This document shows positions 5,416 through 18,943 of a DNA stretch of 21,133 nt, piece after piece. The number at the start of each line of letters is the position of its first letter. The first letter of the stretch is position 1. Origin of the DNA: a virus; IMG/VR virus record IMGVR_UViG_3300019360_000167, positions 1-21,133 of that record; one strand, 5' to 3'. Below the pieces are notes generated by a model. That model saw nothing but the letters and a program-made list of their open reading frames with translations, was not told where the DNA came from and made no database searches. The position numbers and the translations under genes are program-made.

Positions 5416-5492
5416 CACGCTGTCATCGCGAGCGCAACGAGGGATCCAGGCGCCACCCCTGGATCCCTCGCTGCACTCGCGATGACAGCGTG
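5416..5492. repeat. 77-bp REP-like inverted repeat
   Basis: The outer arms (5416-5432 and 5476-5492) are perfect complements of 17 bases containing GTCATCGCGAG. The inner arms (5438-5450 and about 5457-5470) pair through CGAGGGATCCAGG. The structure has a small internal bulge and a short loop. Repeats with GCGAG...GGGATCCAGG arms are, to my knowledge, dispersed in many proteobacterial genomes. It lies 39 bases after the regulator stop, so it could also act as a transcription end or mRNA stabiliser. It is unrelated in sequence to the purine-rich palindromes further right. Confidence 0.85.
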
Positions 5493-5790: not shown

Positions 5791-5902
5791 GCGGCAGGCC
5801 GCCGCCGGGCTGATGACACGGGCGTTTCGCAGGTTGCCGACGTCAGGCAACACCGGTTTTCCCGGCGGGGTACGCTCCGCCGCCCTGACAGGTTCATTCG
5901 AC

Positions 5903-6958
5903 ATGGCTGCAACCGATTATCCGGTCGGGCATCCGCTGGTCGTCAAGCTGTGGCAGAAGCGGATCTGGCGCGAGGCGCTCAAGGAGACGATGGCCATGAA
6001 GTTCATGGGCACGTCGACCAACAGCCTCATCCAGATCCTCGACGACACACAGAAGGGCTCCGGCGACCGGCTGAGGGTGCCGCTGCGCATGCAGCTCGCC
6101 GGCCGCGGCGTCGGCGAGACCGAGGCGCTTGAGGGCAACGAGGAAGCGCTGCTCACCTTCTACGACGACGTGATGATCAACGATCTGGCGCACGCCGTCC
6201 GCAACAAGACCCGCATCGACCAGCAGCGCGTGCCGTGGAGCCTGCGCGAGGAGTCGGCGGCCGGCCTGCGCGACTGGTTCGCCGACCGCGTCGACACCTG
6301 GGCCGCCAACGTGCTGGCCGGCAACACCGGCCAGCCCGACGTGCTCTACACCGGCAACCAGGCGGCCAGCGCGCCGACCTCGGCCGGCGGCAACACGCGC
6401 ATCATCTACGCCGACGGCGCCTCGACCACCGAGGGCTCGCTGACGGCGTCGCAGACCTTCACGCTCGCCATGCTCGACAATGCCGTCACGATCGCCAAGA
6501 CCGCGACGCCGCTGATCCGGCCGGTGAAGGTCGGCAGCCAGGAATACTACGTCGCGTTCCTGCACCCCTTCCAGGTCCGCAACATGCGGCAGAACACCAA
6601 CACCGGGCAGTGGCTCGACATCCAGAAGGCGGCCATGGCCGGCGGCGAGGTCGAGGACAACCCGATCTTCACCGGGGCGCTGGGCGTGCACAACGGCGTC
6701 GTGCTGCACGAGTGGACCCGGCTGCCGGCGGCGCCGACCAACGCCAGCACCCGGCGCGCGGTGTTCTGCGGCGCCCAGGCGGCGGCGATGTGCTTCGGCA
6801 AGGGCTACTCCGAGGAGCCGCTCTACGAGGAGCAGAGCTTCGACTACGGCCGCCAGTTCGGCCAGTCGGTGCAGACCATCGCCGGCATGAAGAAGATGGT
6901 CTTCAACGCCATCGACTTCGGCACCATCGTGATCACGACCTGGGCCGTGGCGCCGTAA
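5903..6958 (+). CDS. N4-gp56-family major capsid protein
   Basis: From ATG 5903 the product is 351 residues, a usual size for this capsid family. Features I recognise are the N-terminal VKLWQKRIWREAL, the early GTSTNSLIQ and the DDVMINDLAHAVR stretch, and the C-terminal GMKKMVFNAIDFGTIVI. These are typical of the major capsid proteins related to phage N4 gp56 (HK97 fold). An in-frame ATG at 5813 would add 30 residues that look unlike the family. No strong Shine-Dalgarno precedes 5903. The gene has very high GC at third codon positions. It is followed after 16 bases by a small head protein. There is no portal, scaffold or terminase gene on its left, which is unusual for a prophage. Confidence 0.85.
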   Translation: MAATDYPVGHPLVVKLWQKRIWREALKETMAMKFMGTSTNSLIQILDDTQKGSGDRLRVPLRMQLAGRGVGETEALEGNEEALLTFYDDVMINDLAHAVRNKTRIDQQRVPWSLREESAAGLRDWFADRVDTWAANVLAGNTGQPDVLYTGNQAASAPTSAGGNTRIIYADGASTTEGSLTASQTFTLAMLDNAVTIAKTATPLIRPVKVGSQEYYVAFLHPFQVRNMRQNTNTGQWLDIQKAAMAGGEVEDNPIFTGALGVHNGVVLHEWTRLPAAPTNASTRRAVFCGAQAAAMCFGKGYSEEPLYEEQSFDYGRQFGQSVQTIAGMKKMVFNAIDFGTIVITTWAVAP

Positions 6959-6974
6959 GGAAGGGAGAACACAC

Positions 6975-7421
6975 ATGGCAGCCATCTCCGCCTCCTTCGC
7001 GGCCGCCAACCAGCCGCGCATCCCCAACGGCGTCGAGACCGTCGACGCCTTCCAGAGCTACGTGACGTCGGCGACGCTCTCGGCCGGCGACGTCATCCAC
7101 TACACCAACCTGAAGATCCCGCACGGCGCCACGATCCTCGACCTGCGGCTCTACGGCGACACGCCGGACGGCTCGGGCATCTACCAGGTCGGGCTGGGCG
7201 GCGGCATCGTGTCGGGGGCGCTGTTCGGCTCGGCCACGGTGTCGGCGACGCCGGCGGTGAAGACCCAGACGACGGCGCTGCCCTACGTGGTGTCGGTCTC
7301 CGACGACGCGGTGCTGCGCTACGTCTACCCGACGCTCACCCAGGACGGCGCCATGACGTCGGGCACGGCCTCGACGTCGCTCGGCGTGCGCGTCACCTGG
7401 ACGATGAACAAGACGCGCTGA
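6975..7421 (+). CDS. Small virion protein downstream of capsid (possible head decoration)
   Basis: The product is 148 residues, with GGGAG ten bases before the ATG. The predicted sequence is Ala/Ser/Thr-rich and beta-prone (ATILDLRLYGD, YVVSVSDDAVLRYVYP), with no signal peptide or membrane segment. A short beta-rich protein just after the capsid gene is commonly a decoration or stabilising protein in phages with N4-gp56-type capsids; this role is inferred from position and size. Codon use matches the capsid gene. A quasi-palindrome starts immediately after its stop. Confidence 0.8.
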   Translation: MAAISASFAAANQPRIPNGVETVDAFQSYVTSATLSAGDVIHYTNLKIPHGATILDLRLYGDTPDGSGIYQVGLGGGIVSGALFGSATVSATPAVKTQTTALPYVVSVSDDAVLRYVYPTLTQDGAMTSGTASTSLGVRVTWTMNKTR

Positions 7422-7513
7422 TCAGAGAACAGAAGACAGGCGACAGAGGACGGAAAGACCAGACCCCCGGTCTCATTCTGTCCTCTGTCATCCGACCACT
7501 GTCATCCGTTTGG
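7422..7513. repeat. Quasi-palindrome 1 (purine-rich family), directly after stop codon
   Basis: The left side is built from AGAACAGAAGACAGG and GACAGAGGAC. The right side carries the complement (TTCTGTCCTCTGTCATCCG, 7476-7494, then a second TGTCATCCG). GACC/GGTC closes the loop. Pairing is imperfect, the weakest of the intergenic family members. It begins at the base after the stop of the head protein. Confidence 0.6.
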
Positions 7514-7538
7514 GGTCCGGGCGTGGTGATGGGTGCTC

Positions 7539-7619
7539 GGCGGAAGGCTCGCTTCCGCCATGCCGGCCCGGGACCCGCCGGCGGCGGGCCTTTGTCGAAA
7601 TCCCCCGGCCCGCCGCCGG
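7539..7619. repeat. Two perfect GC-rich hairpins before the 7638 gene
   Basis: Hairpin A is GGCGGAAG (7539-7546), a 5-base loop, then CTTCCGCC (7552-7559). Hairpin B is CCGGCGGCGGGCC (7578-7590), a 16-base loop, then GGCCCGCCGCCGG (7607-7619). No T run follows hairpin B, only AACTTTT, so it is a poor intrinsic terminator. It ends 18 bases before the start codon and could affect ribosome access or protect the mRNA end. Confidence 0.75.
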
Positions 7620-7637
7620 AACTTTTGCGAGGCAGAC

Positions 7638-8486
7638 ATGCCAATCTTCCGGCAATTCCCACTCTCCCGCATCCCGCCGTACGAGTCGCAGCCGTACGAC
7701 CTGCCGCCGGTCCTGACTCCCGGTCCCTGGCAGCTCTACGAAGCCGGCGGGCAGCCATACGAGCCGTCGTTCGGTGCGCTCATGCCGCCGGCGCCGCCGC
7801 AGTACGCGCAGGGAGAAGGGTTCGATCCGAGATTCATCCACTTGGCCCAATCGCCAGGGAGGGAATCGGGAGGCCCACAATCGGCACCATCCCGGCCGCG
7901 GTCGGCCTCGCTTCTCTACTCGCCGGAATTGCGCGGTCTCTATTCGAGCCCGCAGTCACTGCTTGGTGGGTGGAATCCTTCGCCAGAGCTACTGGAGGAA
8001 AACAGGCAGTGGAAGTACCTGGGGAGGTCGCGGGAGCCTCTCCCGGAGAGGGACCAGTCCTTTGAGGCCCGCAGCAACATCCGGCAGGAGAAAGTCAAGT
8101 TGGCCTCGCAGCCACGCACGATGCGGGATGCGGAGGACGCCCCACCGCCACGGGAGCAGCGCCAGTTGGTGGGTCAGCCGAAGTCTGAGGCTCAGAAGCC
8201 CCCTGTTCAGCCGCATGTGAAAGGCCAGTCCGAGGGGAGTCCCTTCAGCAAGGGAACCAGCATTGACGCGCGACTGGCCGGGAAGCTCGGCGTAGGCCGT
8301 GGCGAGATAGCGCCCGGCATGTCTTTCCAGATTGTCAGAGACAGCAAGGGCAAGTGGCAGGTGGTTCCTTCGCTGGACGTCGGTGTTAGCGATGGTAACG
8401 GAGTCACATTCGAGGGGAGCCACAACCCGTTTACCCATACTTGGGGGCTTCGCGGCAAGATCAAGCTTCCGCTTGGGGATCGCTGA
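7638..8486 (+). CDS. Pro-rich cargo-like protein of unknown function, possibly frameshifted
   Basis: The ATG at 7638 has GCGAGGC upstream and gives 282 residues. The first about 70 residues are Pro/Tyr-rich and look disordered. The C-terminal third (from about residue 195) has a charged linker and then beta-prone segments (MSFQIVRDSKGKWQVVPSL, GVTFEGSHN). I recognise no domain. Its Pro-rich start and relaxed base composition resemble the other cargo proteins at 10028, 15418 and 19427, but it lacks their Gly/Ala hydrophobic segment in this frame. Such a segment appears in the frame with codons starting at 7883 (open until a stop at 8065), so two compensating frameshifts between about 7855 and 8065 are possible. 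It ends 3 bases before the next gene. Confidence 0.65.
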   Translation: MPIFRQFPLSRIPPYESQPYDLPPVLTPGPWQLYEAGGQPYEPSFGALMPPAPPQYAQGEGFDPRFIHLAQSPGRESGGPQSAPSRPRSASLLYSPELRGLYSSPQSLLGGWNPSPELLEENRQWKYLGRSREPLPERDQSFEARSNIRQEKVKLASQPRTMRDAEDAPPPREQRQLVGQPKSEAQKPPVQPHVKGQSEGSPFSKGTSIDARLAGKLGVGRGEIAPGMSFQIVRDSKGKWQVVPSLDVGVSDGNGVTFEGSHNPFTHTWGLRGKIKLPLGDR

Positions 8487-8489
8487 GCC

Positions 8490-10028
8490 GTGAACCTCGA
8501 CCAGGCCATCGGCGTCCTGCAGCAGCGCCACGAGAAGATCGCGGCCAGCGTGTCGGGTGCGCCCGCGCCCATGCAGGCGCTGGAGCACGACTACCACCGG
8601 CTGCTCAACCTGCATCCCGAGCACCCGGCGCTGCTGTTCGGCATCGGCACCATCTACGCGCAGACCGACCGCTCGGGCGCCGCGATCGCGATGCTGCGCC
8701 AGTCGGTCGACCGCGGCTCGCTGGGGCCCGAGCCGTGGCTCAACATGGCCGGCGCCTACAAGAACGAGCACAAGGATGCCAGCGCGGCCGCGTGCTACCG
8801 CAAGGCGCTCGAAATCTGCGACCGGCTGGAGCAGCGCAACGAGAAGGCCAGGCGCAACAGCAAGACGCCGCCGATCGACGCGGCGCAGCTGGCCGCGAAC
8901 CGGTGCAATGCCCTGCACGGCATGGCGTCGCTCTACGTCAACGCCGGCCAGCCGGAGAAGATCATCGAATGGGCCGAGAAGTCGCTGGCGGTCAACGCCG
9001 CCGATCGCTTCGCGCTGTGGAACAAGGCGCTGGGCCTGCTGGAAAGCGGCCGGTTCGCCGAGGGCTTCCGGCTCTATGACGAGGCCGGGTTCATGGCCGG
9101 GGGCGTGAAGCCGCCGGAGCGCAAGATCAAGACCTACGGCGGCCTGCCGAAGTGGGACGGCTTACCCGGCCGGACCGTCATCTGCTACGGCGAGCAGGGC
9201 GTGGGCGACGAGATCATGTTCGCCTCGATGCTGCCGGACCTGCTGCGCGACTGCCGCGTGATCATCGATTGCGACCCGCGCCTGCAGGCGATGTTCCGGC
9301 GGTCGTTCCCCGACGCCGAGGCGGTCTACCCGACCAGCGCCTGGGATGCGCCGTTCGACTGGATCAAGGACCACACTGTCGACGCCTGGGTGCCGATGGG
9401 CAGCCTGGGCCGGTACTACCGGCCGGACCTCGCCGCCTTCCCGCGCACGCCGTTCCTCAAGGCCGACCCGGCGAAGGTCGAGCGCTGGCGCTCAGAAATC
9501 AGAAACCAGAAATCTTCTGGCCTTCCGGCTTCTGACTTCCGTCCTCTGAAAGTCGGCATCAGCTGGGCCGGCGGCCTGAAGAAGACGCGCTTCGACCAGC
9601 GCAGCATGGATCTGAGCGCATGGGCCGACATCCTGCGCGTGCCCGGCATCGGGTGGTATTCGCTGCAGTACCACCCGCAGGCGGCGGACGAGTGCGCCCA
9701 GGTCGGCGCATTGATCGGCGTGCCGATCCACCATTGGGGCGATATCGTGAACGACTTCGAGGAGCTGGCCGGCTTCCTCGCCAACCTCGACCTGGTCATC
9801 ACGGTCAACACGACGGTCGTGCACCTCGCCGGCGCGCTCGGCATCCCGACGTGGTGCCTGACGCCCGCGATGTGCGCCTGGCGCTACCAGTGCCAGGGCC
9901 CGATGCCCTGGTACGGCAGCGTCGAGATGTTCCGGCAGCAGAAGGCAGGCGAGTGGGGGCCGGTGCTGGCGGCCGTGCACGAGCGGCTGGCGGCGATGAT
10001 GCCGCTCGTGACGTGGGAGGCGGCGTAA
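8490..10028 (+). CDS. TPR-containing glycosyltransferase (GT9-like C-terminal half)
   Basis: GTG start at 8490, three bases after the previous stop; 512 residues. Residues 1-200 form TPR-like helical pairs (PEHPALLFGIGTIYAQTD, EPWLNMAGAYKN, ADRFALWNKALGLLESGRF). From about 225 there is a glycosyltransferase fold related to heptosyltransferases and other TPR-linked transferases: YGEQGVGDEIMFASMLPDL (233-251), VGISWAGG (355-362) and LVITVNTTVVHLAGALG (435-451), the nucleotide-sugar binding region. Residues 335-352 are encoded by a palindromic element (9491-9550) placed in frame in the loop before the second nucleotide-binding strand. The gene overlaps the next by one base (TAATG). Its place in a virion operon suggests glycosylation of a virion or host-surface component; the substrate is unknown. 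Confidence 0.85.
   Translation: MNLDQAIGVLQQRHEKIAASVSGAPAPMQALEHDYHRLLNLHPEHPALLFGIGTIYAQTDRSGAAIAMLRQSVDRGSLGPEPWLNMAGAYKNEHKDASAAACYRKALEICDRLEQRNEKARRNSKTPPIDAAQLAANRCNALHGMASLYVNAGQPEKIIEWAEKSLAVNAADRFALWNKALGLLESGRFAEGFRLYDEAGFMAGGVKPPERKIKTYGGLPKWDGLPGRTVICYGEQGVGDEIMFASMLPDLLRDCRVIIDCDPRLQAMFRRSFPDAEAVYPTSAWDAPFDWIKDHTVDAWVPMGSLGRYYRPDLAAFPRTPFLKADPAKVERWRSEIRNQKSSGLPASDFRPLKVGISWAGGLKKTRFDQRSMDLSAWADILRVPGIGWYSLQYHPQAADECAQVGALIGVPIHHWGDIVNDFEELAGFLANLDLVITVNTTVVHLAGALGIPTWCLTPAMCAWRYQCQGPMPWYGSVEMFRQQKAGEWGPVLAAVHERLAAMMPLVTWEAA
9491..9550. repeat. Quasi-palindrome 2, in frame inside the TPR-glycosyltransferase gene
   Basis: The left arm (9492-9513) is TCAGAAATCAGAAACC plus AGAAAT. 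The right arm (9514-9550) is built from CTTCTGGCC, TTCTGACTTCC and TCCTCTGA. The arms pair with A/G-type differences. Composition and unit structure match the intergenic elements at 17345 and 13275. The length keeps the reading frame open and encodes 18 residues (335-352). Confidence 0.75.
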
Positions 10029-11290
10029 TGGCTGATCCGTGGGACACGTTGTCGCCATCGGCATGGACCCGCGCGGCAATGTCGCATCCGTTGGGCGCCG
10101 CAGCGTACAACGCCTGGCGGCAGGGGGATCGCGCCGGCATTCTGGGCATGGTGCCGGACGATGTCCGTCGGGCGTGGTCGCCATGGCTGCTGCCGCTGGC
10201 GAACCCGGCGGTATTCGTGGACACCGTGTCGCCTGGCGCCGCGGTGCGTGACACATTGCATGCGTCCGGCGATCTGGCTCGCGCTGCCATGCGCGGCGAT
10301 CCCGTGGGCGCGCTGGGCGCTACCGGCATGGGCTTGCTGTCGATAGCCGGCCTCGTGCCGTGGCTCGCGCCAGCCAAGGTCGCCACGACAACCACCCAGG
10401 GCGCGGCGAGGGCGGCAGTGCCCGTTGCCACCACAGAGGGCAGGGGGCCGGCAAAGCCTCTGATGCCGGATCTCATGCCGTTGGTGCCGGCGGGCGGCGT
10501 GCAAAACGCCTCGAAAAGTGTTATGATCTCTGATCCTATCCCGAGGTCACAAAGGCCGTTTTCGGCGGACTATCCGACAGGAGCGCGCTCCGATGACAGC
10601 GGTCGACTCACCCACGACATCGAAGGAAGAGAACTCGTCGCAGACCGGGTGGTCGGTCGAAGAGTGGTGGGCGGAGAAGATGTTGCCGTCACGCAAGCAG
10701 AACTTGACCCCATCACAACGCGCCTTACAGGCAGCCCTGCTAAGGTTGTTGCGCCGCGCGCGCTTCCAAGAAAAGCAGTCGGAGTCTACGAGCAATGGCG
10801 CAACCCCGTAACGGGGGAACGCGAGCGAGCCATTGCCCTGAGTAAGGCGCTATCAGCGCAGGACACGCCGCGCGTCCTTGGTCACGAAGTCGGCCACGCC
10901 ATATCGAGGATGGCTGACGACATACCAGCCGACGGCATCGAGACAAAGCTCCGCCAGGTCTACAACGACCTGAACGCGCGTGACTGGCGGGTCGAGAAAA
11001 GCGCCAAGACGGGCGAGCCTGTTCCGCGGCGTTACTGGATCGGCCCCGAGCAGCAAGGCTACACGGGCGCGCACATCCCCCGGGAACTGATGGCCGAGGC
11101 GATCCGCGCCTACATGACAGACCCCAACTACCTGAAGACCGTTGCGCCGGAAGTGGCCGCGCGGACTCGCAAGTATGCCAATCCGAATCCCCTGACCTCG
11201 CGAACCATTCAGTTCAATTCGATGCTGCTGCCGCTGGCGGCGGGCGGCTTCGGGACGCTCATGCCGCCGGTCTTCGGCGAGGAGCGCTGA
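10028..11290 (+). CDS. Modular cargo protein with HExxH metallopeptidase-like domain
   Basis: The ATG overlaps the previous stop (TAATG); 420 residues. Order: N-terminal region with Trp/Pro-rich helices (1-80); Gly/Ala hydrophobic segment GALGATGMGLLSIAGLVP (94-111); a conserved-looking block RPFSADYPTGA...GRLTHDIEGREL (176-203) of the type I associate with large polyvalent phage proteins; then HEVGH (286-290), the zinc-binding HExxH motif, with E357 in LMAEAIRAY a plausible third ligand. The C-terminal NPNPLTSRTIQFNSMLL and GFGTLMP tail is repeated in the orphan gene at 20585. The stretch 10500-10810 is lower in GC than the flanks, suggesting a swapped module. Inferred role: a virion-packaged or host-directed metalloprotease; activity is not proven. 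Confidence 0.8.
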   Translation: MADPWDTLSPSAWTRAAMSHPLGAAAYNAWRQGDRAGILGMVPDDVRRAWSPWLLPLANPAVFVDTVSPGAAVRDTLHASGDLARAAMRGDPVGALGATGMGLLSIAGLVPWLAPAKVATTTTQGAARAAVPVATTEGRGPAKPLMPDLMPLVPAGGVQNASKSVMISDPIPRSQRPFSADYPTGARSDDSGRLTHDIEGRELVADRVVGRRVVGGEDVAVTQAELDPITTRLTGSPAKVVAPRALPRKAVGVYEQWRNPVTGERERAIALSKALSAQDTPRVLGHEVGHAISRMADDIPADGIETKLRQVYNDLNARDWRVEKSAKTGEPVPRRYWIGPEQQGYTGAHIPRELMAEAIRAYMTDPNYLKTVAPEVAARTRKYANPNPLTSRTIQFNSMLLPLAAGGFGTLMPPVFGEER

Positions 11291-11292
11291 CC

Positions 11293-11808
11293 ATGACGCT
11301 GATCACCGACGCCTACCGCGAGCAGAACCGCCAGCTGCACGCCGGCCGCGCCGACTACGGCACCTCGGGCAAGGCCTGGGCGCCGCAGGTGCGGCCGCTC
11401 GCCGACTGGGGCCGCAAGGCGGTCCTCGATTTCGGCTGCGGCAAGGCCACGCTCGCCGCGAGGCTCGGGCCGGCGTACCGGATCACGAACCATGACCCCT
11501 GCATCGAGGGGCTGGACGCGACGCCGGCGCCGCACCCCGTCGTGGTGTGCGGCGACGTGCTGGAGCATGTCGAGCCGGAGTGCCTCGAGGCGGTGCTCGC
11601 CGAGCTGCGCCGCGTGACGCAGGAGGTCGGGCTGTTCGTCGTCCACCTCACGGCGGCGAAGAAGACGCTGCCCGACGGCCGCAACGCGCACCTGATCCAG
11701 CAGCCGGCCGCCTGGTGGCAGGCCCGCATCACCGCCGCCGGCTTCGCGATCGAGCAGCAGGGCGCCGTCGGGCACGAGGCGTGGTTCGTCGTGAGGCCGG
11801 CTCAATGA
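11293..11808 (+). CDS. Class I SAM-dependent methyltransferase-like protein
   Basis: The ATG lies two bases after the previous stop; 171 residues, short for the family. Motif I is present as VLDFGCGKATLAARLG (residues 44-59), and HDP and the DVLEHVEPE stretch (about 92-100) correspond to the acidic loop and motif IV region. Both are usual in small-molecule and carbohydrate methyltransferases. It sits between a metallopeptidase-like gene and a glycosyltransferase and overlaps the latter by four bases (ATGA), so it probably acts on a sugar or other group made by the same operon. No DNA-methylase motif (DPPY/NPPY) is seen. Confidence 0.82.
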   Translation: MTLITDAYREQNRQLHAGRADYGTSGKAWAPQVRPLADWGRKAVLDFGCGKATLAARLGPAYRITNHDPCIEGLDATPAPHPVVVCGDVLEHVEPECLEAVLAELRRVTQEVGLFVVHLTAAKKTLPDGRNAHLIQQPAAWWQARITAAGFAIEQQGAVGHEAWFVVRPAQ

Positions 11809-12614
11809 TCCTTCAGCAGACTTCAGGACAAGCCCTTCTGCAGGCCCCGGGGCAGGCCGAGCCGCTGCTCGTCTTCATCGGTTTCGACCCGCGCGAGGAG
11901 ATCGCGTTCGACGTGTGCCGGCATTCGCTGCTGCGTCGCTCGTCGGTGCCGCTCCACGTCAGGGCACTGCGCCAGGACGGGCTTCGCGTTGCCGGGCTGT
12001 ACCGCCGCGCCTGCTTCGTGCGCGACGGCCAGCGGGTCGATGCCATCGACGGCCGGCCGTTCTCGACCGAGTTCAGCTTCACGCGCTTCCTCGTGCCGGC
12101 GCTGTGCCGATACGAGGGCTGGGCGCTGTTCGTCGACTGCGATTTCCTGTTCCTGGCCGACGTCGCCGAGCTGTGCCGGCACATGGACGAGAGCAAGGCC
12201 GTCATGGTCTGCCGGCAGCGCCACGACCCGGCCGAGGGCGTGAAGATGGATGGGCAGGCGCAGAGCCGCTACCGGCGCAAGAACTGGTCGTCCTTCATGT
12301 TGCTCAATTGCGGGCATCCGGCCGTGAAGCGCCTGACCGTTGCCGCGGTGAACGAACAGCCGGGATCCTGGTTGCACGGGTTCGAGTGGCTGGAGGACGG
12401 CCGGATCGGCGACCTGCCGCACGCGTGGAACTGGATCGCCGGCACGACGCGCGGCAGCCCCAAGGCGATTCACTACACGTCGGGCGGGCCATGGTTCACC
12501 GACCATGCGTCGGTCGCGTTCGCGCGCGAATGGCGCGACGAGCATGCACGGACACGCGCGGCCGCGACGACCGGCGCCGCCGAGACCCAAACCGTGTCGG
12601 AGGAGGCCGCGTGA
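11805..12614 (+). CDS. Glycosyltransferase with DxD motif (GT8-like)
   Basis: The ATG overlaps the methyltransferase stop (ATGA); 269 residues. After a Gln-rich N-terminus, LLVFIGFDPREEIAFDVCRHSLL opens a nucleotide-sugar binding fold. FTRFLVPALCRYEGWALFVDCDFLFL carries the DxD metal/nucleotide-sugar motif (FVDCDF), and later IGDLPHAWNWIAG and IHYTSGGPWF resemble the C-terminal parts of GT8-type transferases. No signal or membrane segment is seen. With the TPR-glycosyltransferase and methyltransferase it forms a three-enzyme sugar-modification set inside the virion operon. Substrate unknown. Confidence 0.8.
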   Translation: MILQQTSGQALLQAPGQAEPLLVFIGFDPREEIAFDVCRHSLLRRSSVPLHVRALRQDGLRVAGLYRRACFVRDGQRVDAIDGRPFSTEFSFTRFLVPALCRYEGWALFVDCDFLFLADVAELCRHMDESKAVMVCRQRHDPAEGVKMDGQAQSRYRRKNWSSFMLLNCGHPAVKRLTVAAVNEQPGSWLHGFEWLEDGRIGDLPHAWNWIAGTTRGSPKAIHYTSGGPWFTDHASVAFAREWRDEHARTRAAATTGAAETQTVSEEAA

Positions 12615-12653
12615 CGCTTCAACAGACCCGGGCCAGGAAGAGGAGGGCGCGCC

Positions 12654-13274
12654 GTGGCGACGCTGGCTGACCTGCGCGCCCGCATCGCGGATGACCTCGA
12701 TCGGTCGGACCTCACGTCGCAGATCGACGCCGCCATCCGTGACGCCGTCGAGCACTACGAGTCCGAGCGCTTCGTGTTCAACGAGGTGGTGGGTGCCACG
12801 GCGACGTTCAGCAGCAGCGTGGACTCGATCCCGCTCGCGTCGCTCCCGGTGGCCTTCACCCGCGTCGACCGCATCCGCATCGACGATGGCGGCGCCGACC
12901 TGGTCGACCTGGTGCCGCGCGACTACGCCTGGCTGATGGCGGCGCAGGATGCCAGGGCGGTGGCACGGCCGGTCGAATACTGCATCTACGCCGATCGCAT
13001 CCAGCTCGACAGCCGGCCCGACCGGGACTACGCGGCGATCCTCGATGGCGTGCGGCGCATCAGCACCGCCAGCGCCGCGACCGACAGCAGCGCCTGGTTC
13101 AACGACGGCAAGCGCCTGGTCCGCGCCCGCGCCAAGGCCGAGCTCTACGCCCACGTCATCAAGGAGTTCCCGCAGGCCGAGGCGATGGCGGCGGTCGAAC
13201 GGCGCGAGTACCGCGCGCTGAAGCAGAAGCTCAACACGCGCAACAGCGGGCGGGTGCGCCCGACGGAGTTCTAG
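12654..13274 (+). CDS. Phage head-tail adaptor-like protein (SU10-type)
   Basis: The GTG at 12654 has a strong AGGAGG 8 bases upstream; 206 residues. The N-terminal VATLADLRARIADDLDRSDL, then IDAAIRDAVEHYESERFVFNE, is the pattern I recognise from SU10-like phage adaptor proteins that sit between portal and tail in short-tailed phages. It is alpha-helical at both ends with a beta middle, and the C-terminus is basic. Third-position GC is very high, like the capsid gene. A short GTG frame of 19 codons (12612-12671) overlaps its start and begins like the gene at 11805 (MTLQQT vs MILQQT); I treat that as a remnant. A quasi-palindrome follows the stop. Confidence 0.72.
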   Translation: MATLADLRARIADDLDRSDLTSQIDAAIRDAVEHYESERFVFNEVVGATATFSSSVDSIPLASLPVAFTRVDRIRIDDGGADLVDLVPRDYAWLMAAQDARAVARPVEYCIYADRIQLDSRPDRDYAAILDGVRRISTASAATDSSAWFNDGKRLVRARAKAELYAHVIKEFPQAEAMAAVERREYRALKQKLNTRNSGRVRPTEF

Positions 13275-13391
13275 CCGGAGGACAGAGGACAGATGACGGA
13301 GGACAGAAAAGCGAAACCCAAGAGGGCAGAGCGGGGAAGGGCGGGGCAGGAGTTCATTCTGTCCTCCGTCAACCGTCCTCTGTCCTCTGCG
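13275..13391. repeat. Quasi-palindrome 3, directly after adaptor stop codon
   Basis: The left arm (13277-13308) and right arm (13357-13389) are near-perfect complements made of GGACAG/GGACGG units, with about four differences. The loop of about 48 bases is G/A-rich. It starts within three bases of the TAG at 13272-13274. There is no T run after the right arm, so it is not a standard intrinsic terminator. Confidence 0.85.
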
Positions 13392-13469
13392 AAGAAAGCG
13401 CGACGCCGCAAGCGTCTCGCTCTGCTGCTCGCCGGCTACGCGCTCGCGCAGGAACAGGAGGTTTCGTGA
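13293..13469 (+). CDS. Possible 58-residue small protein starting inside the palindrome
   Basis: An ATG at 13293, inside the left arm, opens a frame through loop and right arm and continues into a sequence-like tail: KKARRRKRLALLLAGYALAQ, a basic cluster then a hydrophobic stretch. It ends at a TGA sharing its A with the next start (TGATG at 13467-13471). The tail (13389-13469) looks like genuine coding sequence in phase with an operon junction; the N-terminal part is palindrome-derived. It may be a small membrane-associated peptide whose original N-terminus was replaced by the element. Function unknown. Confidence 0.35.
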   Translation: MTEDRKAKPKRAERGRAGQEFILSSVNRPLSSAKKARRRKRLALLLAGYALAQEQEVS

Positions 13470-13921
13470 TGTGGTGGAACCAGACGCCGCCCTGGATGCA
13501 GGGCATGGGGCAGGGCGGCCAGCCGGGCATGACGCCCGGCGCCGGCATGCCGCCGTATCGCAACGCCCCGATGAACATGAACCCGGTGCAGATGGGGCCG
13601 CCCGGCTCGATTCCCGTCGCGCCGCCACCTGCCGCGCAGCAGGGCCAGCGGCCCGTTGATCCGGCGCAGATGGGCATGCTGGCGGCGATGCTGGCGCAGC
13701 AAACGCAGAAGCCAATGACATCCGTGGCGCAGCGGGCCGCCGCAGCCGGCGCAACTGGTGTTGGCGGACCGCTGCCCGGCGGCGCGGCCGCGGTGCCCGC
13801 GGGCGCGGCCGCAGTGCCCGCCGGCGCTGCCGCGGTACCCGCCGGCATGGACCCGAGCCAACTCGGGATGCTGGCGCAGTTCCTTGCGCGGCAGGGCATC
13901 CTGGGCGGCCTCGGTCGCTGA
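13469..13921 (+). CDS. Met/Pro/Gly-rich disordered virion-associated protein
   Basis: 150 residues from ATG 13469, chosen over GTG 13466 because AGGAGG (13456-13461) then lies 7 bases away. The N-terminal half is rich in Met, Pro, Gly and Gln (MNMNPVQMGPP). There is a triple AAAVPAG repeat (residues 105-125) and a short helical end LGMLAQFLARQG. The partial protein at 20815 has the same composition and a similar GMLI...LLPGMMQQRG ending. Location between adaptor and nozzle suggests a virion component or internal protein; no family recognised. Confidence 0.7.
   Translation: MWWNQTPPWMQGMGQGGQPGMTPGAGMPPYRNAPMNMNPVQMGPPGSIPVAPPPAAQQGQRPVDPAQMGMLAAMLAQQTQKPMTSVAQRAAAAGATGVGGPLPGGAAAVPAGAAAVPAGAAAVPAGMDPSQLGMLAQFLARQGILGGLGR
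13781..13843 (+). repeat. Three in-frame 21-bp tandem repeats
   Basis: Three units (13781, 13802, 13823) each encode GAAAVPA. The first two differ at only two bases, while the third has drifted at synonymous sites, so selection on the encoded linker is likely. Confidence 0.9.
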
Positions 13922-13922
13922 C

Positions 13923-15383
13923 ATGCGCGTCGCCCTGGGCCCGCTCGCACCCGACAACCCCGACCTCGGCAACGCCGGGCTCGAGGATGCGGTGAACTGC
14001 ATCCCGCTGGACACGGCCTACGGGCCGTTCCCGGACACGCAGGTGTTCTCCGCGTCGATCTCCGGGCGGGCCCAGGGCGCCTGGTCGACCCGCGACACAT
14101 CGGGCACCGTCAGCACCTTCGCCGCCACCGCGGGCCAGATCTACAAGGCCAGCGCCACGGGCTGGGCCAACGTCTCGCGCACCGCCAGCTACACGACGGC
14201 GACCGACGGCTCCTGGGCGTTCGCGACCTTCGGCAACACCTGCCTGGCCGTGAACGGGCTCGACGCCATGCAGGTCTACACGCTCGGCAGCTCCTCGCGA
14301 TTCCTCGACCAGAGCGCCAGCGCCAGCGCGCCGCTCGCCGCCTCGATCTGCGTGGTGCGCGACTTCGTGTTCGCGGGCCGCCTGTCGACCCAACAGCACC
14401 GCCTGCAGTGGTGCCAGATCAACAACCCGCTGCGCTGGACGGCGAGCGCCCGGGCGCAGTCGGACAGCCAGGGCCTGCCGGGCGAAGGCGGCGCGATCGT
14501 GGCCATGACCGGCGGCGACTTCGCCACCGTCCTGGCGCAGCGCTCGATCTGGCGCGGCACCTATGTCGGCTCGCCGGTGATCTTCCGGTTCGACGAGGTC
14601 GTGCCCAACATCGGCTGCGCCGCACAGGGCAGCGTGGCGCGCTTCCAGAACCTGACGTTCTTCCTGTCGCAGAGCGGCTTCTATCTCTTCGACGGCGCCC
14701 AGGCGGTGCCGATCGGCAACAACCTGATCGACCGCTTCTTCCTCGACGACCGCAACCCCTCGTTCCTGAACCGCATCACATCGGTCATCGACCCGATCAA
14801 CAAGCTCTACATCGTCAGCTACCCCAGCAACGCCAGCACGTCAGGCACGGCCGACCGGATGCTGCTCTACAACTGGGCGGCCCGGCGCTGGGCCCGCGCC
14901 GAGGTGAGCCTGGAGCTGATCTTCTCCGGGCTCAGCGCCGGCTACACGCTGGAAGAGCTGGATGCGCTTTCCGGCAGCCTCGATGACCTGCCGTTCAGCC
15001 TCGACAGCGACGCCTGGGCCGGCGGCAACACCATCATCTCGGGCTTCAATCCCGTGCACCGCATGGTGACGTTCGACGGCGCCGCCAGGACGGCGCGCTT
15101 CATCACCGGCGAGGCGCAGCTGATCCCCGACCGGCGTGCGTTCATGACCGCCGTGCGGCCGCTGGTGCAGGGTAACGCCAGCACAGCCATCACCGTGCAG
15201 GTCGGCAAGCGCGATCGGCTGGTCGACAGCGTGTCGTACACGACGGCCTCGGCGATGAATGCCAACGGCCTGTGCCCGGTGCGCGCCAACGCCCGCTTCC
15301 ACCGCCTGCGCATGGACATCAGCGCCGGCTTCACCCAGGCCTTGGGGTTCGATCTCACGGCCGGACCGGAGGGACTGCGGTGA
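13923..15383 (+). CDS. Large beta-rich tail protein, probable tail nozzle/hub
   Basis: 486 residues from ATG 13923, two bases after the previous stop. The N-terminal ALGPLAPDNPDLGNAGLEDA and repeated beta segments (IWRGTYVGSPVIFRF, LTFFLSQSGFYLFDG, MLLYNWAARRWARAE) are those of a beta-propeller-like phage protein. In short-tailed phages such a protein (P22 gp10 or T7 gp12 functional analogue) follows the adaptor and forms the tail nozzle. The assignment rests on overall pattern and on the adaptor upstream. High third-position GC groups it with the capsid and adaptor. A GTG frame of 12 codons (15380-15418) spans the gap to the next gene. Confidence 0.72.
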   Translation: MRVALGPLAPDNPDLGNAGLEDAVNCIPLDTAYGPFPDTQVFSASISGRAQGAWSTRDTSGTVSTFAATAGQIYKASATGWANVSRTASYTTATDGSWAFATFGNTCLAVNGLDAMQVYTLGSSSRFLDQSASASAPLAASICVVRDFVFAGRLSTQQHRLQWCQINNPLRWTASARAQSDSQGLPGEGGAIVAMTGGDFATVLAQRSIWRGTYVGSPVIFRFDEVVPNIGCAAQGSVARFQNLTFFLSQSGFYLFDGAQAVPIGNNLIDRFFLDDRNPSFLNRITSVIDPINKLYIVSYPSNASTSGTADRMLLYNWAARRWARAEVSLELIFSGLSAGYTLEELDALSGSLDDLPFSLDSDAWAGGNTIISGFNPVHRMVTFDGAARTARFITGEAQLIPDRRAFMTAVRPLVQGNASTAITVQVGKRDRLVDSVSYTTASAMNANGLCPVRANARFHRLRMDISAGFTQALGFDLTAGPEGLR

Positions 15384-15417
15384 ACGCTGACACGTACAAG
15401 CCGATGGAGGCGACGTG

Positions 15418-16524
15418 ATGAGTGGCGATCCACTGCCCGTCTACATGCCGCTGGCCGCGCCGCCACCGCCGGCGGGCACGCCACCGCGGGACCCCTTGAG
15501 GTACATCGAAGACCGGTTGGTGAATGCACTCGCGCGCGCCTTCGGCCTGCCGCCCCTGCGCCAGCCCGACCCGCGCGCATCGGCCTGGAGCGTGTCGCCT
15601 GGCGCGCCTTTCGCGCCGGGGGCGTTGCTGTCGGCGGAAGGCGGCGGACAGCGTCTGAAGCCCGGCGCTTCGCTGCCGGGACGAACGCCCAACCCCTACG
15701 ACTTCGGCTACGACGCGCTGGATCTGATCGCCGGATTCTCACCGCTGGCCGCCGTCAGGGATGCCGCAACCGAGTTCGAGAACGCACGCATGAAAAGTCA
15801 GGCTGGTGACGCTTTGGGCGCGGCTGGTGCTACGGGGCTCGGCCTGCTGGCGCTGGCGGGAATCGTGCCGCCGGGCAGGGCGGCGGCGGCGGCAAGGGAA
15901 GCGGCGCTCTTGAAACGGGCAACCGACGCGGCGCGCAAGGCCGATCTCGCCACGGACGAGGCGAGCCGTATGCAACGCCGGGCCGCAGGCGGCTATACCG
16001 CCGGCCTCTGGCGCGGTGGTACCGGCCCGGAGAGCGGCGTCTGGTTCACACCCGACAAGGCGTGGGCAACTGACTTCGCCGCGCGGTATGGCGGCACCGG
16101 CGACCTGCGGGAGTATGCGATACGGATGGGGCGCGAGTTCGACGCGCGCCAGACCCATAGCGCCACCGAACTCAAGCCAATTGCCGACGCGATCGCCAAA
16201 ATAGACCCGAAATTCGCAGGCCAGTTGATCGAGCACGCGGACGACTGGGGCGGCCGCATTCCAGGCCCTGCCGTTTGGTACCTGATGAAGCAAAACTTGG
16301 TCGATCCGTTCGGTCCGTTCGCACGCGCCGGCTACGATTCCATCAATGCCGGAAGGGAGGTCGTCGCCTTGCGACGGACGCAGGGGCAGGTGCGGGATGC
16401 TAACAGAGCGATGTTCAATCCGGCGCTGAGAAACAGCCCTAATCCGTTTGCCGCTGTCCTTCCGCCTGCGCTGACGTTCGGGGTGCTCTATCCCACCCTT
16501 CTCAGCGAGGAGCGGCCGCGATGA
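15418..16524 (+). CDS. Modular cargo protein with ADP-ribosyltransferase-like domain (A)
   Basis: ATG 15418 chosen over GTG 15415 for its 7-base distance from GGAGG; 368 residues. Order: Pro-rich N-terminus (1-100), Gly/Ala hydrophobic segment DALGAAGATGLGLLALAGIV (131-150), Ala-rich helix (154-190), then a domain with LWRGG (197-201), VWFTPDKAWATDFAARYG (208-225), AGYDSINAGREVVAL (304-318) and ANRAMFNPALR (328-338), and a short hydrophobic tail ending SEERPR. This order resembles ART-type domains of phage polyvalent proteins (aromatic-RGG, a WFT/FS plus A-F/Y segment, then GYD...evv). A catalytic Glu is not obvious, so activity is uncertain. The 19427 gene shares every motif. The 3' end overlaps a minus-strand gene by 37 bases. 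Confidence 0.72.
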   Translation: MSGDPLPVYMPLAAPPPPAGTPPRDPLRYIEDRLVNALARAFGLPPLRQPDPRASAWSVSPGAPFAPGALLSAEGGGQRLKPGASLPGRTPNPYDFGYDALDLIAGFSPLAAVRDAATEFENARMKSQAGDALGAAGATGLGLLALAGIVPPGRAAAAAREAALLKRATDAARKADLATDEASRMQRRAAGGYTAGLWRGGTGPESGVWFTPDKAWATDFAARYGGTGDLREYAIRMGREFDARQTHSATELKPIADAIAKIDPKFAGQLIEHADDWGGRIPGPAVWYLMKQNLVDPFGPFARAGYDSINAGREVVALRRTQGQVRDANRAMFNPALRNSPNPFAAVLPPALTFGVLYPTLLSEERPR

Positions 16525-16910
16525 TAGCTCACTCTGACCCCGTTCTTCGTGACGTAGCCGAAGGTGCCCCGCCCTTCGGCGATGGCCTCATCAATGCTGA
16601 CAGGAGCAAATCCGCCGAACCAGCCCCTGTGGACAAGAACATGGCGCTCACTCGGCGTACCCGGATGTGCCACGACGTAGCCTTCGTAGACGATGTCCGG
16701 CCCTTCCTCCGCCAGAGGGTCGAAGCGATACAGGTCGTGGAGGGTAAGCACGGAACCGGGAACTTCGGGTCGCGGAAAGGTGTAGCGACGCCCGTTGTCC
16801 TCGTCATCGCCGGGTGCGTCGTCGCCTCCGATGCGATCGCGGGCGCGCGCCGGGTTGTCCTTGGTGCTCTCAGGTTCTCGCATGGCTTGAATGATATTGC
16901 GGCGCGCCAT
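16488..16910 (-). CDS. Minus-strand small protein convergent with ART-like gene; unknown function
   Basis: 140 residues from ATG 16910; a TTG at 16919 and an ATG at 16883 are alternatives, none with a strong ribosome binding site. The first about 45 residues are charged and look disordered. The rest is sequence-like, with beta and aromatic segments (GSVLTLHDLYRFDPLAEE, IVYEGYVVAHPGTPSERH, VLVHRGWFGGFAPVSIDEAI, YVTKNGVRVSYHRG). Codons end mostly in G or C, as expected of a real gene here. It is the only convincing minus-strand gene in the virion operon and overlaps the 3' end of the ART-like gene tail to tail. The plus strand is also open here (16521-16985) with ATGA overlaps at both ends, but its composition is less protein-like. 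An immunity or regulatory role is a guess from position. Confidence 0.6.
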   Translation of the reverse strand: MARRNIIQAMREPESTKDNPARARDRIGGDDAPGDDEDNGRRYTFPRPEVPGSVLTLHDLYRFDPLAEEGPDIVYEGYVVAHPGTPSERHVLVHRGWFGGFAPVSIDEAIAEGRGTFGYVTKNGVRVSYHRGRSSLRRVG

Positions 16911-16981
16911 GAGGCGCAACTAACCTATGGTTGCACATCAGGAAAAGGTACCCGCAAAAGCAGCTTGATCGAGGTGCTGCG

Positions 16982-17344
16982 ATGACGCTGGTTCTCACCG
17001 GCCCGCCGCCGAGCTGGAAGGCGCAGCTGGAGAGCGAGGATCTCCAGAACGTCAAGCGTGGCGCCGAGTTCGTGAGCCTCACGGGCGTGGCTGCAACGCG
17101 CCTGGGCAGCGGCGACTGGATCTACATCGTCGACACCACGGCGGCCAACCGGCAGGTGATCCTGCCGCGCTCGGCCGACGAGGTCGGTCACCTGCATACC
17201 GTCAAGCGCATCAGCGGCGGGGGCAACACCTGCGTCGTGTCGAGCGAAGGCGGCAACCTCGACGGGTCGACCAGCTACAGCATCGCGACGCAGCACGTCG
17301 CCGTGGGCTTCTTCGCCGACGGCGAGAACTGGTGGGCAATCTAG
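16982..17344 (+). CDS. Phage virion beta-domain protein (fibre/baseplate-type)
   Basis: 120 residues from ATG 16982, with GAGGTG upstream. The pattern YIVDTTAANRQVILPRSA, GHLHTVKRISGGGNTCVV, GGNLDGSTSYSI, HVAVGFFADGENWWAI is the well-known small beta domain of phage tail-fibre and baseplate proteins (TVTLP..., YTVKK..., TIDG..., SDG.NW). Here it stands alone as a whole protein just before the tail-fibre gene, so it probably joins or caps the fibre. High third-position GC. A quasi-palindrome starts right after its stop. Confidence 0.78.
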   Translation: MTLVLTGPPPSWKAQLESEDLQNVKRGAEFVSLTGVAATRLGSGDWIYIVDTTAANRQVILPRSADEVGHLHTVKRISGGGNTCVVSSEGGNLDGSTSYSIATQHVAVGFFADGENWWAI

Positions 17345-17440
17345 AATGTCAGAAGACCAGAAGTTCAGAAGGCCAGAAATCGGAAGGAAAGGGAGCCAGC
17401 GCTTTTCTGGTTTCTGGCCTTCTGACTTCTGGTTTCTGAA
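17345..17440. repeat. Quasi-palindrome 4, between virion protein stop and fibre start
   Basis: The left arm (about 17349-17386) is made of CAGAAG-type units (TCAGAAGACCAGAAG, TTCAGAAGGCCAGAAA). The right arm (17402-17439) is its complement with a few differences. The loop of about 15 bases contains GGAAAGGGAG. It fills the whole gap: it starts at the base after the stop and ends at the base before the fibre ATG. Confidence 0.9.
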
Positions 17441-18658
17441 ATGAGCTACAGCCCACCCGGCACCGGCGGCGGCAGCGGCACCGGCGCCGTTGACTCGGTG
17501 TTCGGCCGCACCGGCGCGGTCGTGGCCGAGGCCGGCGACTACAGCGCCACCATGATCGCGTTCACGCCGGTCGGCGGCGTGGCGGCGACCACGGTGCAGG
17601 CCGCCATCGCCGAGCTGGACAGCGAGAAGCTCTCCAGCGCCTCGGCGGCCTCGGCCTATGCCGCGATCGCGCACGGGCACGACGCCGTCTCCGTCAGCTA
17701 TTCCGCCGGTGGCGGCATCGCGGCAACCAACGTCCAGGATGCGCTGGACGAGCTCGATGCCGAGAAGCTCTCCTCGGCCTCGGCAGCGACGGCGTATGCC
17801 GCCATCGGGCACGTCCATGCCGCGGGCTCGATCAGCTACTCCGCGTCGGGCGGCATCACTGCCACGACGGTGCAGGCCGCCATTGCCGAGCTGGACGCGG
17901 AGAAGCTGAGCAGCGCCAGCGCCGCGGTCGCCTATGCAGCCATCGGCCACGTGCACGCCGCCGCCTCGGTCAGCTACAGCGCCAGCGGCGGCATTGCGGC
18001 GACGACGGTGCAAGGTGCCATCGCCGAGCTCGACGCGGAGAAGATCGGCGGCATTGCCGTCACCGTCTACACCAGCGGCTCCGGCACCTACACGACGGCC
18101 GCCGGCGTGAAGTACCTGCTGGTCGAGATGGTCGGCGGCGGTGGCGGCGGCTCCGGCTCCGGCTCGGCGCCTGGTGCCGGCGGCAACGGCGGCACCAGCA
18201 CGTTCGGCGCTTCGCTGGTCTGCAATCCCGGCGCCGGCGCGGCGGTCGCTACTGTCGACTCCAACGGCGGCGCCGGCGGCACGGCGAGCGGTGGCGACGT
18301 CAACATCACCGGCTTGCGCGGCCAGGACGGCGCCGACGGCTACACCTTCCAGGACGGCGGCGCCGGTGGCGGCACGCCGTTCGGCAACCCGCCGGGCAAC
18401 ACGGCCTCGGGGCCGACGCGCACGCCGCCGTCGAACATCGGCTGCGGCGGCTCGGGCGGCGGCGCCGACGCGACGGCACCACCCGGCGGCGGCGGCGGTG
18501 GCGGCGGCTACCTGCGCAAGCTCATTGCTTCGCCCTCGGCGAGTTACGCCTGGCAGGTCGGCGCCGGCGGTGCGGCGGGGACGGTGGGCGGCGGCACGCA
18601 GCCGAAGGCAGGTGCCGCAGGCTCGTCCGGACTGATCATCGTGACGGCATTTTCGTGA
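17441..18658 (+). CDS. Tail fibre with 46-residue repeats and Gly-rich tip
   Basis: 405 residues. The N-terminal VDSVFGRTGAVVAEAGDYSA is a common motif at the virion-proximal part of phage fibres. Four repeats follow (residues about 38-205), each with GG.AATTVQAAIAELD.EKLSS and YAAIGHVHAA, a period of 46 residues; the fourth is cut short after the EK. From about 210, YTSGSGTYTTAAGVKYLLVEM leads into a Gly-rich domain with long Gly runs, likely a receptor-binding tip of the Gly-rich adhesin type, ending SSGLIIVTAFS. There is no Shine-Dalgarno before the start because the palindrome's pyrimidine-rich arm directly abuts the ATG. Role: host recognition. Confidence 0.88.
   Translation: MSYSPPGTGGGSGTGAVDSVFGRTGAVVAEAGDYSATMIAFTPVGGVAATTVQAAIAELDSEKLSSASAASAYAAIAHGHDAVSVSYSAGGGIAATNVQDALDELDAEKLSSASAATAYAAIGHVHAAGSISYSASGGITATTVQAAIAELDAEKLSSASAAVAYAAIGHVHAAASVSYSASGGIAATTVQGAIAELDAEKIGGIAVTVYTSGSGTYTTAAGVKYLLVEMVGGGGGGSGSGSAPGAGGNGGTSTFGASLVCNPGAGAAVATVDSNGGAGGTASGGDVNITGLRGQDGADGYTFQDGGAGGGTPFGNPPGNTASGPTRTPPSNIGCGGSGGGADATAPPGGGGGGGGYLRKLIASPSASYAWQVGAGGAAGTVGGGTQPKAGAAGSSGLIIVTAFS
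17560..18050 (+). repeat. 138-bp in-gene repeat encoding fibre shaft units
   Basis: The codons for SYS recur at about 17696, 17834 and 17972, exactly 138 bp apart, with a diverged first copy upstream. The copies keep amino-acid motifs better than bases. Confidence 0.85.
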
Positions 18659-18774
18659 GTCAGAAGACAGGCATCAGGCATCAGGGATCAGACAGGAGGA
18701 CGGAATGAAGATCGCGACGGCCAAAGCCGGGCAAGGCCTTTCTGATCCCCGATACCTGATCCCTGTCCTCTGAC
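18659..18774. repeat. Quasi-palindrome 5, directly after fibre stop codon
   Basis: The left arm (18659-18696) and right arm (18737-18774), 38 bases each, match at about 33 positions. Their units are GTCAGAAGACAGG and ATCAGGCATCAGGGATCAG, different from those of elements 3 and 4. The loop is 40 bases. It starts on the base after the fibre TGA. The left arm carries an AGGAGG (18694-18699) placed for a 22-codon frame (18705-18773) that reads through the right arm. Confidence 0.9.
18705..18773 (+). CDS. Possible 22-residue leader peptide in palindrome 5
   Basis: ATG 18705 with AGGAGG five bases upstream; the frame reads across the right arm and stops five bases before the next gene's ATG at 18779. 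Translation would keep the right arm open and couple to the downstream gene. The peptide has no recognisable features. Confidence 0.25.
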   Translation: MKIATAKAGQGLSDPRYLIPVL

Positions 18775-18778
18775 CGCC

Positions 18779-18943
18779 ATGTCACCGCAGGAACGACAGA
18801 TGATCGAGGAGCTCATGGACCGGCTCGCCCGGGCCGAGGCCGAGAATGCGCGCTCGCGCAAGACGGTCGCGGCGCTGATGCGCAAAGGCCTCCTGGCAGC
18901 CGAGGATCTCGATGAGGGAGGTGGCGATGTTCGCAATCCCTGA
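18779..18943 (+). CDS. Small helical protein of 54 residues
   Basis: From ATG 18779: charged and heptad-like (ERQMIEELMDRLARAEAENA), then RKTVAALMRKGLLAAEDLDE. It is almost certainly a single long helix or short coiled coil. Codon use is typical of the window. Its last 17 bases overlap the next gene. Coiled-coil peptides of this size in virion operons may act as chaperones, spacers or accessory proteins; no specific family recognised. Confidence 0.7.
   Translation: MSPQERQMIEELMDRLARAEAENARSRKTVAALMRKGLLAAEDLDEGGGDVRNP

Follow-up and report, generated by a model that had tools for sequence, protein, structure and literature searches.

Hairpins with facing heptamer arms at stop–start junctions of a prophage structural operon, probably gained and replaced as whole units

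The stretch of DNA analyzed here (the window) is the 21,133-base IMG/VR virus record IMGVR_UViG_3300019360_000167, a prophage structural operon that carries five hairpin elements (Table 1). All five have facing arms made of tandem degenerate heptamers, or octamers in element 4, and in all five the 5′ arm is the purine-rich one. Elements 1, 3, 4, and 5 begin at the first base past a stop codon, and element 5 ends four bases ahead of the next ATG. The nearest phages were found in two bacterial genomes: that of Vineibacter terrae (G001), where the head protein is 89% identical to the one in the window, and that of Reyranella sp. CPCC 100927 (G002), where the identity is 85–87%. Because a flanking histidine kinase resembles one in G002 (Table 1), the host is related to these alphaproteobacteria. 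Comparison of the hairpins with their counterparts in related phages points, on balance, to the gain and replacement of whole hairpins at junctions between genes.

Table 1. Hairpin elements, small open reading frames (ORFs), and other genes of the window. Inverted repeats are given as left arm/right arm with percent complementarity; SD, Shine–Dalgarno; nt, nucleotides.
Feature	Position	Strand	Inverted repeat	RNA-fold z-score	Description
Element 1	7422–7513		7429–7458/7473–7502, 73% (core arms)	−4.3	KGACRGA-type heptamers; first base directly after stop of 6975–7421
Element 2	9491–9550			−1.7	Short, weak; CAGAAR-type heptamers; in frame within gene 8490–10028
Element 3	13269–13396 (initially 13275–13391)		13269–13308/13357–13396, 85%	−7.3	KGACRGA heptamers; follows stop codon 13272–13274
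Element 4	17345–17440		17365–17385/17405–17425, 90%; extends further with gaps	−8.0	CAGAAR octamers; spans exactly the post-stop base to the base preceding the next ATG
Element 5	18659–18774		18659–18696/18737–18774, 87%	−6.4	Mixed ACAGG/GATCAGG heptamers; between stop of 17441–18658 and ATG at 18779
58-residue ORF	13293–13469	+			Starts within element 3 left arm; SD-like GAGGACAG, ATG in CAGATGACGG
32-residue ORF	17346–17444	+			Traverses element 4; TGA overlaps next start as ATGA
22-residue ORF	18705–18773	+			SD-like GGAGGACGG in element 5 loop; stops 5 nt ahead of next ATG
Major head protein gene	5813–6958	+			phrog_334, E 5e-77; bait for relatives
Virion structural protein	13758–15383				
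Tail-fibre-like gene	17441–18658	+			phrog_863, E 1.3e-9; between elements 4 and 5
Histidine kinase	2089–4689				Flanks prophage; 69% identity to one in G002

The initial annotation had described five quasi-palindromes with arms of short degenerate units, and both descriptions were borne out. Judged by inverted repeats and folding, elements 3, 4, and 5 are very strong and element 1 is good; element 2 by itself is weak, with 13 of 200 shuffles folding equally well. The best arm period was 7 in four elements and 8 in element 4. Four purine-first hairpins with a score of at least 12 were found in the window, whereas 30 dinucleotide-shuffled versions of its full sequence together yielded one. We measured the agreement of the arms by shuffling the 7-mer blocks of one arm and rescoring its match to the other. 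The arms of element 3 (P = 0.01), element 4 (0 of 2000 shuffles), and element 5 (P = 0.001) matched beyond unit composition, and because block shuffles rarely reach their match, these arms agree in the exact order of the unit variants. The arms of elements 1 (P = 0.14) and 2 (P = 0.10) did not, so the claim that arms agree within each element holds for three of the five. A companion claim, that arms of different elements do not align, is correct only in part: element 1 aligned better with element 3 (score of 23), which shares its unit type, than its own arms did with each other (14.5), and element 2 aligned better with element 4 (15.5), again of the same type, than its own arms did (11). With regard to criteria for miniature inverted-repeat transposable elements (MITEs), the window elements have terminal inverted repeats, and no copies of one consensus were found within the window. 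A comparison of the window with Rfam 15 models gave no match.

The homologous sites in the two nearest relatives are mostly bare. All five hairpins are missing from V. terrae. In G002, a hairpin stands only at site 1, the other four sites being without one; it differs in sequence and is made of CAGAAR units. There is no copy of elements 1 and 3 at the V. terrae sites, and element 3 is also missing from G002. The gene that holds element 2 is a net 30 nt longer than in both relatives. The stretch from element 4 through the tail-fibre-like gene to element 5 had no match in either relative, and the two elements bracket this unmatched gene as if all three formed one cassette (17345–18774). Element 4 is flanked by AATG on both sides, the relatives being too divergent to provide an exact empty site. 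A tandem-arm test on 800 kilobases (kb) of the two host genomes gave a count of 0, and TCAGAAGTCAGAA occurred in neither G001 nor G002 (0 in each). The idea that the CAGAAG type originated in the closest hosts was likewise unsupported: TTCTGACTTCTG was found in 7 of 75 genomes of the family, a frequency not above that of the reversed control, and neither G001 nor G002 was among the seven. A looser scan picked up a strong CACAGAG-type hairpin in the Reyranella chromosome (L037, 8776–8912), with kin in L199 (5997–6095) and L367.

Copying between arms and insertion of whole hairpins were compared at two orthologous junctions in the phage family around contig L207, the same members of which carry hairpins at both. 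Junction 1 lies ahead of a small conserved gene and offers ten alleles of a hairpin made of KGACRGA units. The arm match within an allele (15.8) was no better than that between alleles (15.5; P = 0.34, or 0.59 and 0.74 with fixed splits), and the left arms of orthologues resembled each other at least as well as they did their own right arms. The independent drift of arms in relatives, which the initial annotation had named as evidence against arm copying, is therefore present at junction 1. Moreover, the hairpins there are more diverged than the adjacent gene in nearly all pairs. At junction 2, between a head-protein and a tail-fibre gene, seven contigs are bare, with 21–24 nt that comprise the stop codon, an SD sequence, and the ATG; 13 have a hairpin, and two have other palindromes. 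In L211 (2363–2566), a whole hairpin is duplicated in tandem, head to tail, at this junction. The hairpins of L207 and L225 are made of KGACRGA units in both arms, and most others are made of RTCAGKR. L225 groups with L221 and L224 in a tree of the neighboring gene (support of 96/93), and these two have the same flanks as L225 with RTCAGKR in both of their arms. Here, then, the arms differ jointly: a whole hairpin of another type sits at the same place, by insertion or recombination. Within one unit type, a weak residual arm match was seen at junction 2 (P = 0.17 or 0.015, depending on the split).

Similar hairpins occur in other phages and on chromosomes. Viral contigs contained 19 stretches with the pattern CAGAANNCAGAA-(12–42)-TTCTGNNTTCTG, which occurred in 0 of 398 Pseudomonadota genomes. 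Close copies of the window elements gave no match in phage and plasmid collections at an E value of 0.01 (BLAST with the low-complexity filter on). Several phage contigs have four to six hairpins each, mostly tandem-armed and built from different units, among them ATGCAGA, GTGACGG, GAGTGAC, and GGTGATTA; they often fill the exact gap from a stop codon to a start codon next to genes for portal, head, or tail proteins. L145 carries a hairpin like element 4 that is missing from the same junction in L308. The chromosome of the alphaproteobacterium G547 has a dispersed hairpin family that matches element 5, and an arm of this element is nearly identical over 25 nt to a hairpin of that family's chromosome; comparisons of the best arm elsewhere with the own arm are maxima over 163 low-complexity hairpins and are suggestive only, save for this 25-nt near-identity. 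The G547 hairpins show an own-arm match (P = 0.016). A dispersed family is also present on the G743 chromosome, and phage contigs L194 and L200 hold several copies with common arms and a common loop. Copies with a common pattern thus exist for element 5 and in L194/L200; the initial annotation had set copies sharing one fixed consensus against its own reading, and these findings speak at least partly against arm copying. Among tandem-armed hairpins found independently of the search patterns, 13 were purine-first and none was pyrimidine-first; 615 kb of viral loci chosen by protein only gave 9 purine-first, 0 pyrimidine-first, and 1 mixed, several of these being orthologous copies. Because a hairpin reads alike on both strands, this polarity is independent of orientation. 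A period of 7 or 8 and purine-first polarity are common to the class. Palindromes of another common type (GTCATTCCGG/GATTCCCG) were seen beside a heptamer hairpin in L213 (2249–2526) and in the loop of a CACGAAG-armed hairpin in L337 (upstream of 1501).

The interpretation that we favor, with somewhat better than even confidence, is that whole hairpins are gained and replaced at stop–start junctions that tolerate them, each being matched at birth and drifting afterward. The elements would be whole palindromic inserts from several related families. Ready-made hairpins would enter the DNA through a mover and would probably be small non-autonomous elements akin to repetitive extragenic palindromic (REP) sequences or MITEs; they would survive in a phage late operon where the harm is small, either after a stop and before a start codon or inserted in frame where the encoded protein is permissive. 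The arms would be alike since the hairpin is born matched, with later mutation and gain or loss of units proceeding independently in each arm, and a whole hairpin could be replaced at the same junction by one of another unit type. The act of transposition, and an enzyme for it, are what we infer from these comparisons. Several results weigh against this interpretation. No transposase was linked to the hairpins, and 11 Y1 transposase loci in G547, G743, G001, and G002 are without them. No loop is common to the five window elements, as copies of one element would share, and target-site duplication was not consistent, with AATG on both sides of element 4 but none visible at elements 1, 3, or 5 or at the L145 hairpin. 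Replacement of one hairpin by another could be recombination between phages. Finally, own arms match beyond their shared units in elements 3, 4, and 5 of the window and, to a weak degree, at junction 2 and in G547; recent birth accounts for this surplus, as template switching would also do.

Template switching during replication, or quasi-palindrome correction, could make arms and keep them alike, starting from a short heptamer array and without any transposition, and it is documented in E. coli, yeast, and other genomes (PMC7202029, PMC3820800, PMC8794818). Such a process, a mutation process rather than an element, would account for the unit-order-specific match in elements 3, 4, and 5 as well as for the residual matches in G547 and within one unit type at junction 2. 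The ten orthologous hairpins at junction 1 show no arm co-variation, however, their left arms being at least as much alike among orthologues as with their own right arms, and template switching predicts neither dispersed copies with common arms and loops nor bare orthologous junctions. We therefore regard it as unlikely. The two tests named in the initial annotation came out at least partly against its proposal that arms are copied from each other; continuing arm-to-arm copying is unnecessary, although the residual matches would allow a minor contribution from template switching.

The initial annotation had also suggested that hairpin structure is selected. Selection for a messenger RNA (mRNA) function, either intercistronic stability or translation of the downstream structural gene, would keep the structure and leave the sequence free. 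It would fit the flush stop–start placement in late operons of several unrelated phages, the joint occupancy of both junctions in the L207 family, and the ORFs and start codons within elements 3, 4, and 5. We nevertheless find it quite improbable: related phages are bare at the same junctions, the V. terrae prophage does without all five hairpins, similar hairpins are also scattered on chromosomes, and the arms at junction 1 do not co-vary. Mismatched arm positions form G-U wobbles in 4 cases on the mRNA strand vs. 10 on the other strand, which gives no support to selection for mRNA pairing. A terminator role was rejected, as no element has an intrinsic terminator (a stem followed by a T run) on the plus (mRNA) strand; the one terminator-like site, on the minus strand of element 2, is at chance level. 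By analogy with a proposal for Geobacter metallireducens, the arms might instead serve a DNA-binding protein as arrayed binding sites. The class 3 unit of that organism, MTYCTGA, complements the CAGAAG type and occurs in pairs on opposite strands (PMC2700814), and the units are constant in their core, variable at other positions, and fixed in polarity. The unit type varies between elements of one phage, whereas one protein would need one unit, and the closest hosts lack such sites, which leaves this explanation very improbable.

As a side effect of the gain of whole hairpins favored above, the start codons and ORFs that they carry may influence how the downstream gene is translated. The ATGA overlap at the end of element 4 could allow translational coupling. 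By eye, the basic and hydrophobic C-terminal half of the 58-residue ORF resembles small ORFs that G001 and G002 have at this position. Peptides from translated arms (QSAECRVQNAECRVQ, QKPEARNQKPE, and SEDQKF..SDFWFL) recur in L200 (3161–4750), L145 (8291–8803), and the window (17346–17444), and they could help in finding such hairpins in protein databases. Two other features lie outside this set: a 35-nt palindrome with 94% complementarity (GTCATCGCGAGCGCAACGAGGGATCC...) in the host flank (5416–5492), which is of another kind and lacks tandem heptamers, and a long ORF at 25–1400, whose translation contains a block of ∼120 residues about four times over and which probably runs antisense to a tandemly repeated gene.

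Among known systems, REP sequences and REPINs, associated with the transposase TnpA-REP (RAYT), are similarly small, extragenic, dispersed, non-autonomous palindromes. The ends of the five elements, read directly, lack the tetranucleotide GTAG or CGTC that stands at the foot of such palindromes, and the Y1 loci of the four genomes are not flanked by these hairpins, leaving a REP/RAYT origin unsupported. One Y1-type transposase gene of G547 lies between inverted copies of a different, REP-like repeat, CAGGGGACAGACCACGTTTTC (L277, 1300–1420 and 2195–2275; G547:C3). Rickettsia palindromic elements insert in frame into protein genes, and elements 2 and 3 are similar in this respect; the Rickettsia families have a fixed consensus and no tandem heptamer arms. 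Cyanobacterial STRR sequences are short tandem heptamers, intergenic and multicopy, in direct arrays, unlike the facing complementary arms of the window elements.

A kinship with heptamer repeats, as suggested initially, was supported, and the closest published description that we found is that of the paired hepta- and octanucleotide arrays (classes 1–4) of G. metallireducens (PMC2700814). These consist of three to five tandem degenerate units of 7–8 nt in opposite-strand pairs at variable distance; they are intergenic and multicopy, and they are missing from the sister species G. sulfurreducens (PMC2700814). A single unit characterizes each class, which has many copies on the chromosome and was read as the site of a global regulator, whose binding is a proposal (PMC2700814). 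All five window elements share the tandem 7–8-nt units in opposite-strand arrays, and elements 2 and 4 fit the complement of class 3 (TCAGAA), whereas elements 1, 3, and 5 do not. Unlike Geobacter, this prophage has several unit types, placed at stop–start junctions. The TAACTGA repeats of Beggiatoaceae and cyanobacteria are tandem intergenic heptamers of patchy occurrence that mostly end 1 nt ahead of a start codon (PMC4679880); in contrast to the window hairpins, they are direct repeats of one fixed heptamer, with a single inverted case reported (PMC4679880). In the open-licence literature, we found no paper on such hairpins in phages, and searches by exact repeat sequence returned unrelated papers or none. 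Here, paired degenerate heptamer arrays occur in phages, at stop–start junctions, with several unit types per genome, and the class seems to be unnamed. A broader proposal, which we put forward as a doubtful one, is that purine-first heptamer-armed hairpins constitute a distinct class of mobile or enzyme-made palindromes across bacteria and phages, with machinery of its own that would make 7–8-nt units of fixed polarity and insert or exchange whole hairpins at stop–start junctions.

Compact phages nonetheless carry such hairpins between their head and tail genes, where they mostly diverge faster than the adjacent gene. The signature of the class is simple (a period of 7 or 8, facing arms, and purine-first polarity), which makes an automatic survey feasible. 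Were a mover or polymerase to be found, it would explain a type of repeat that is known piecemeal, from the Geobacter arrays and other bacterial heptamers, and would reveal how start codons and small ORFs come to be brought in between the genes of phages.

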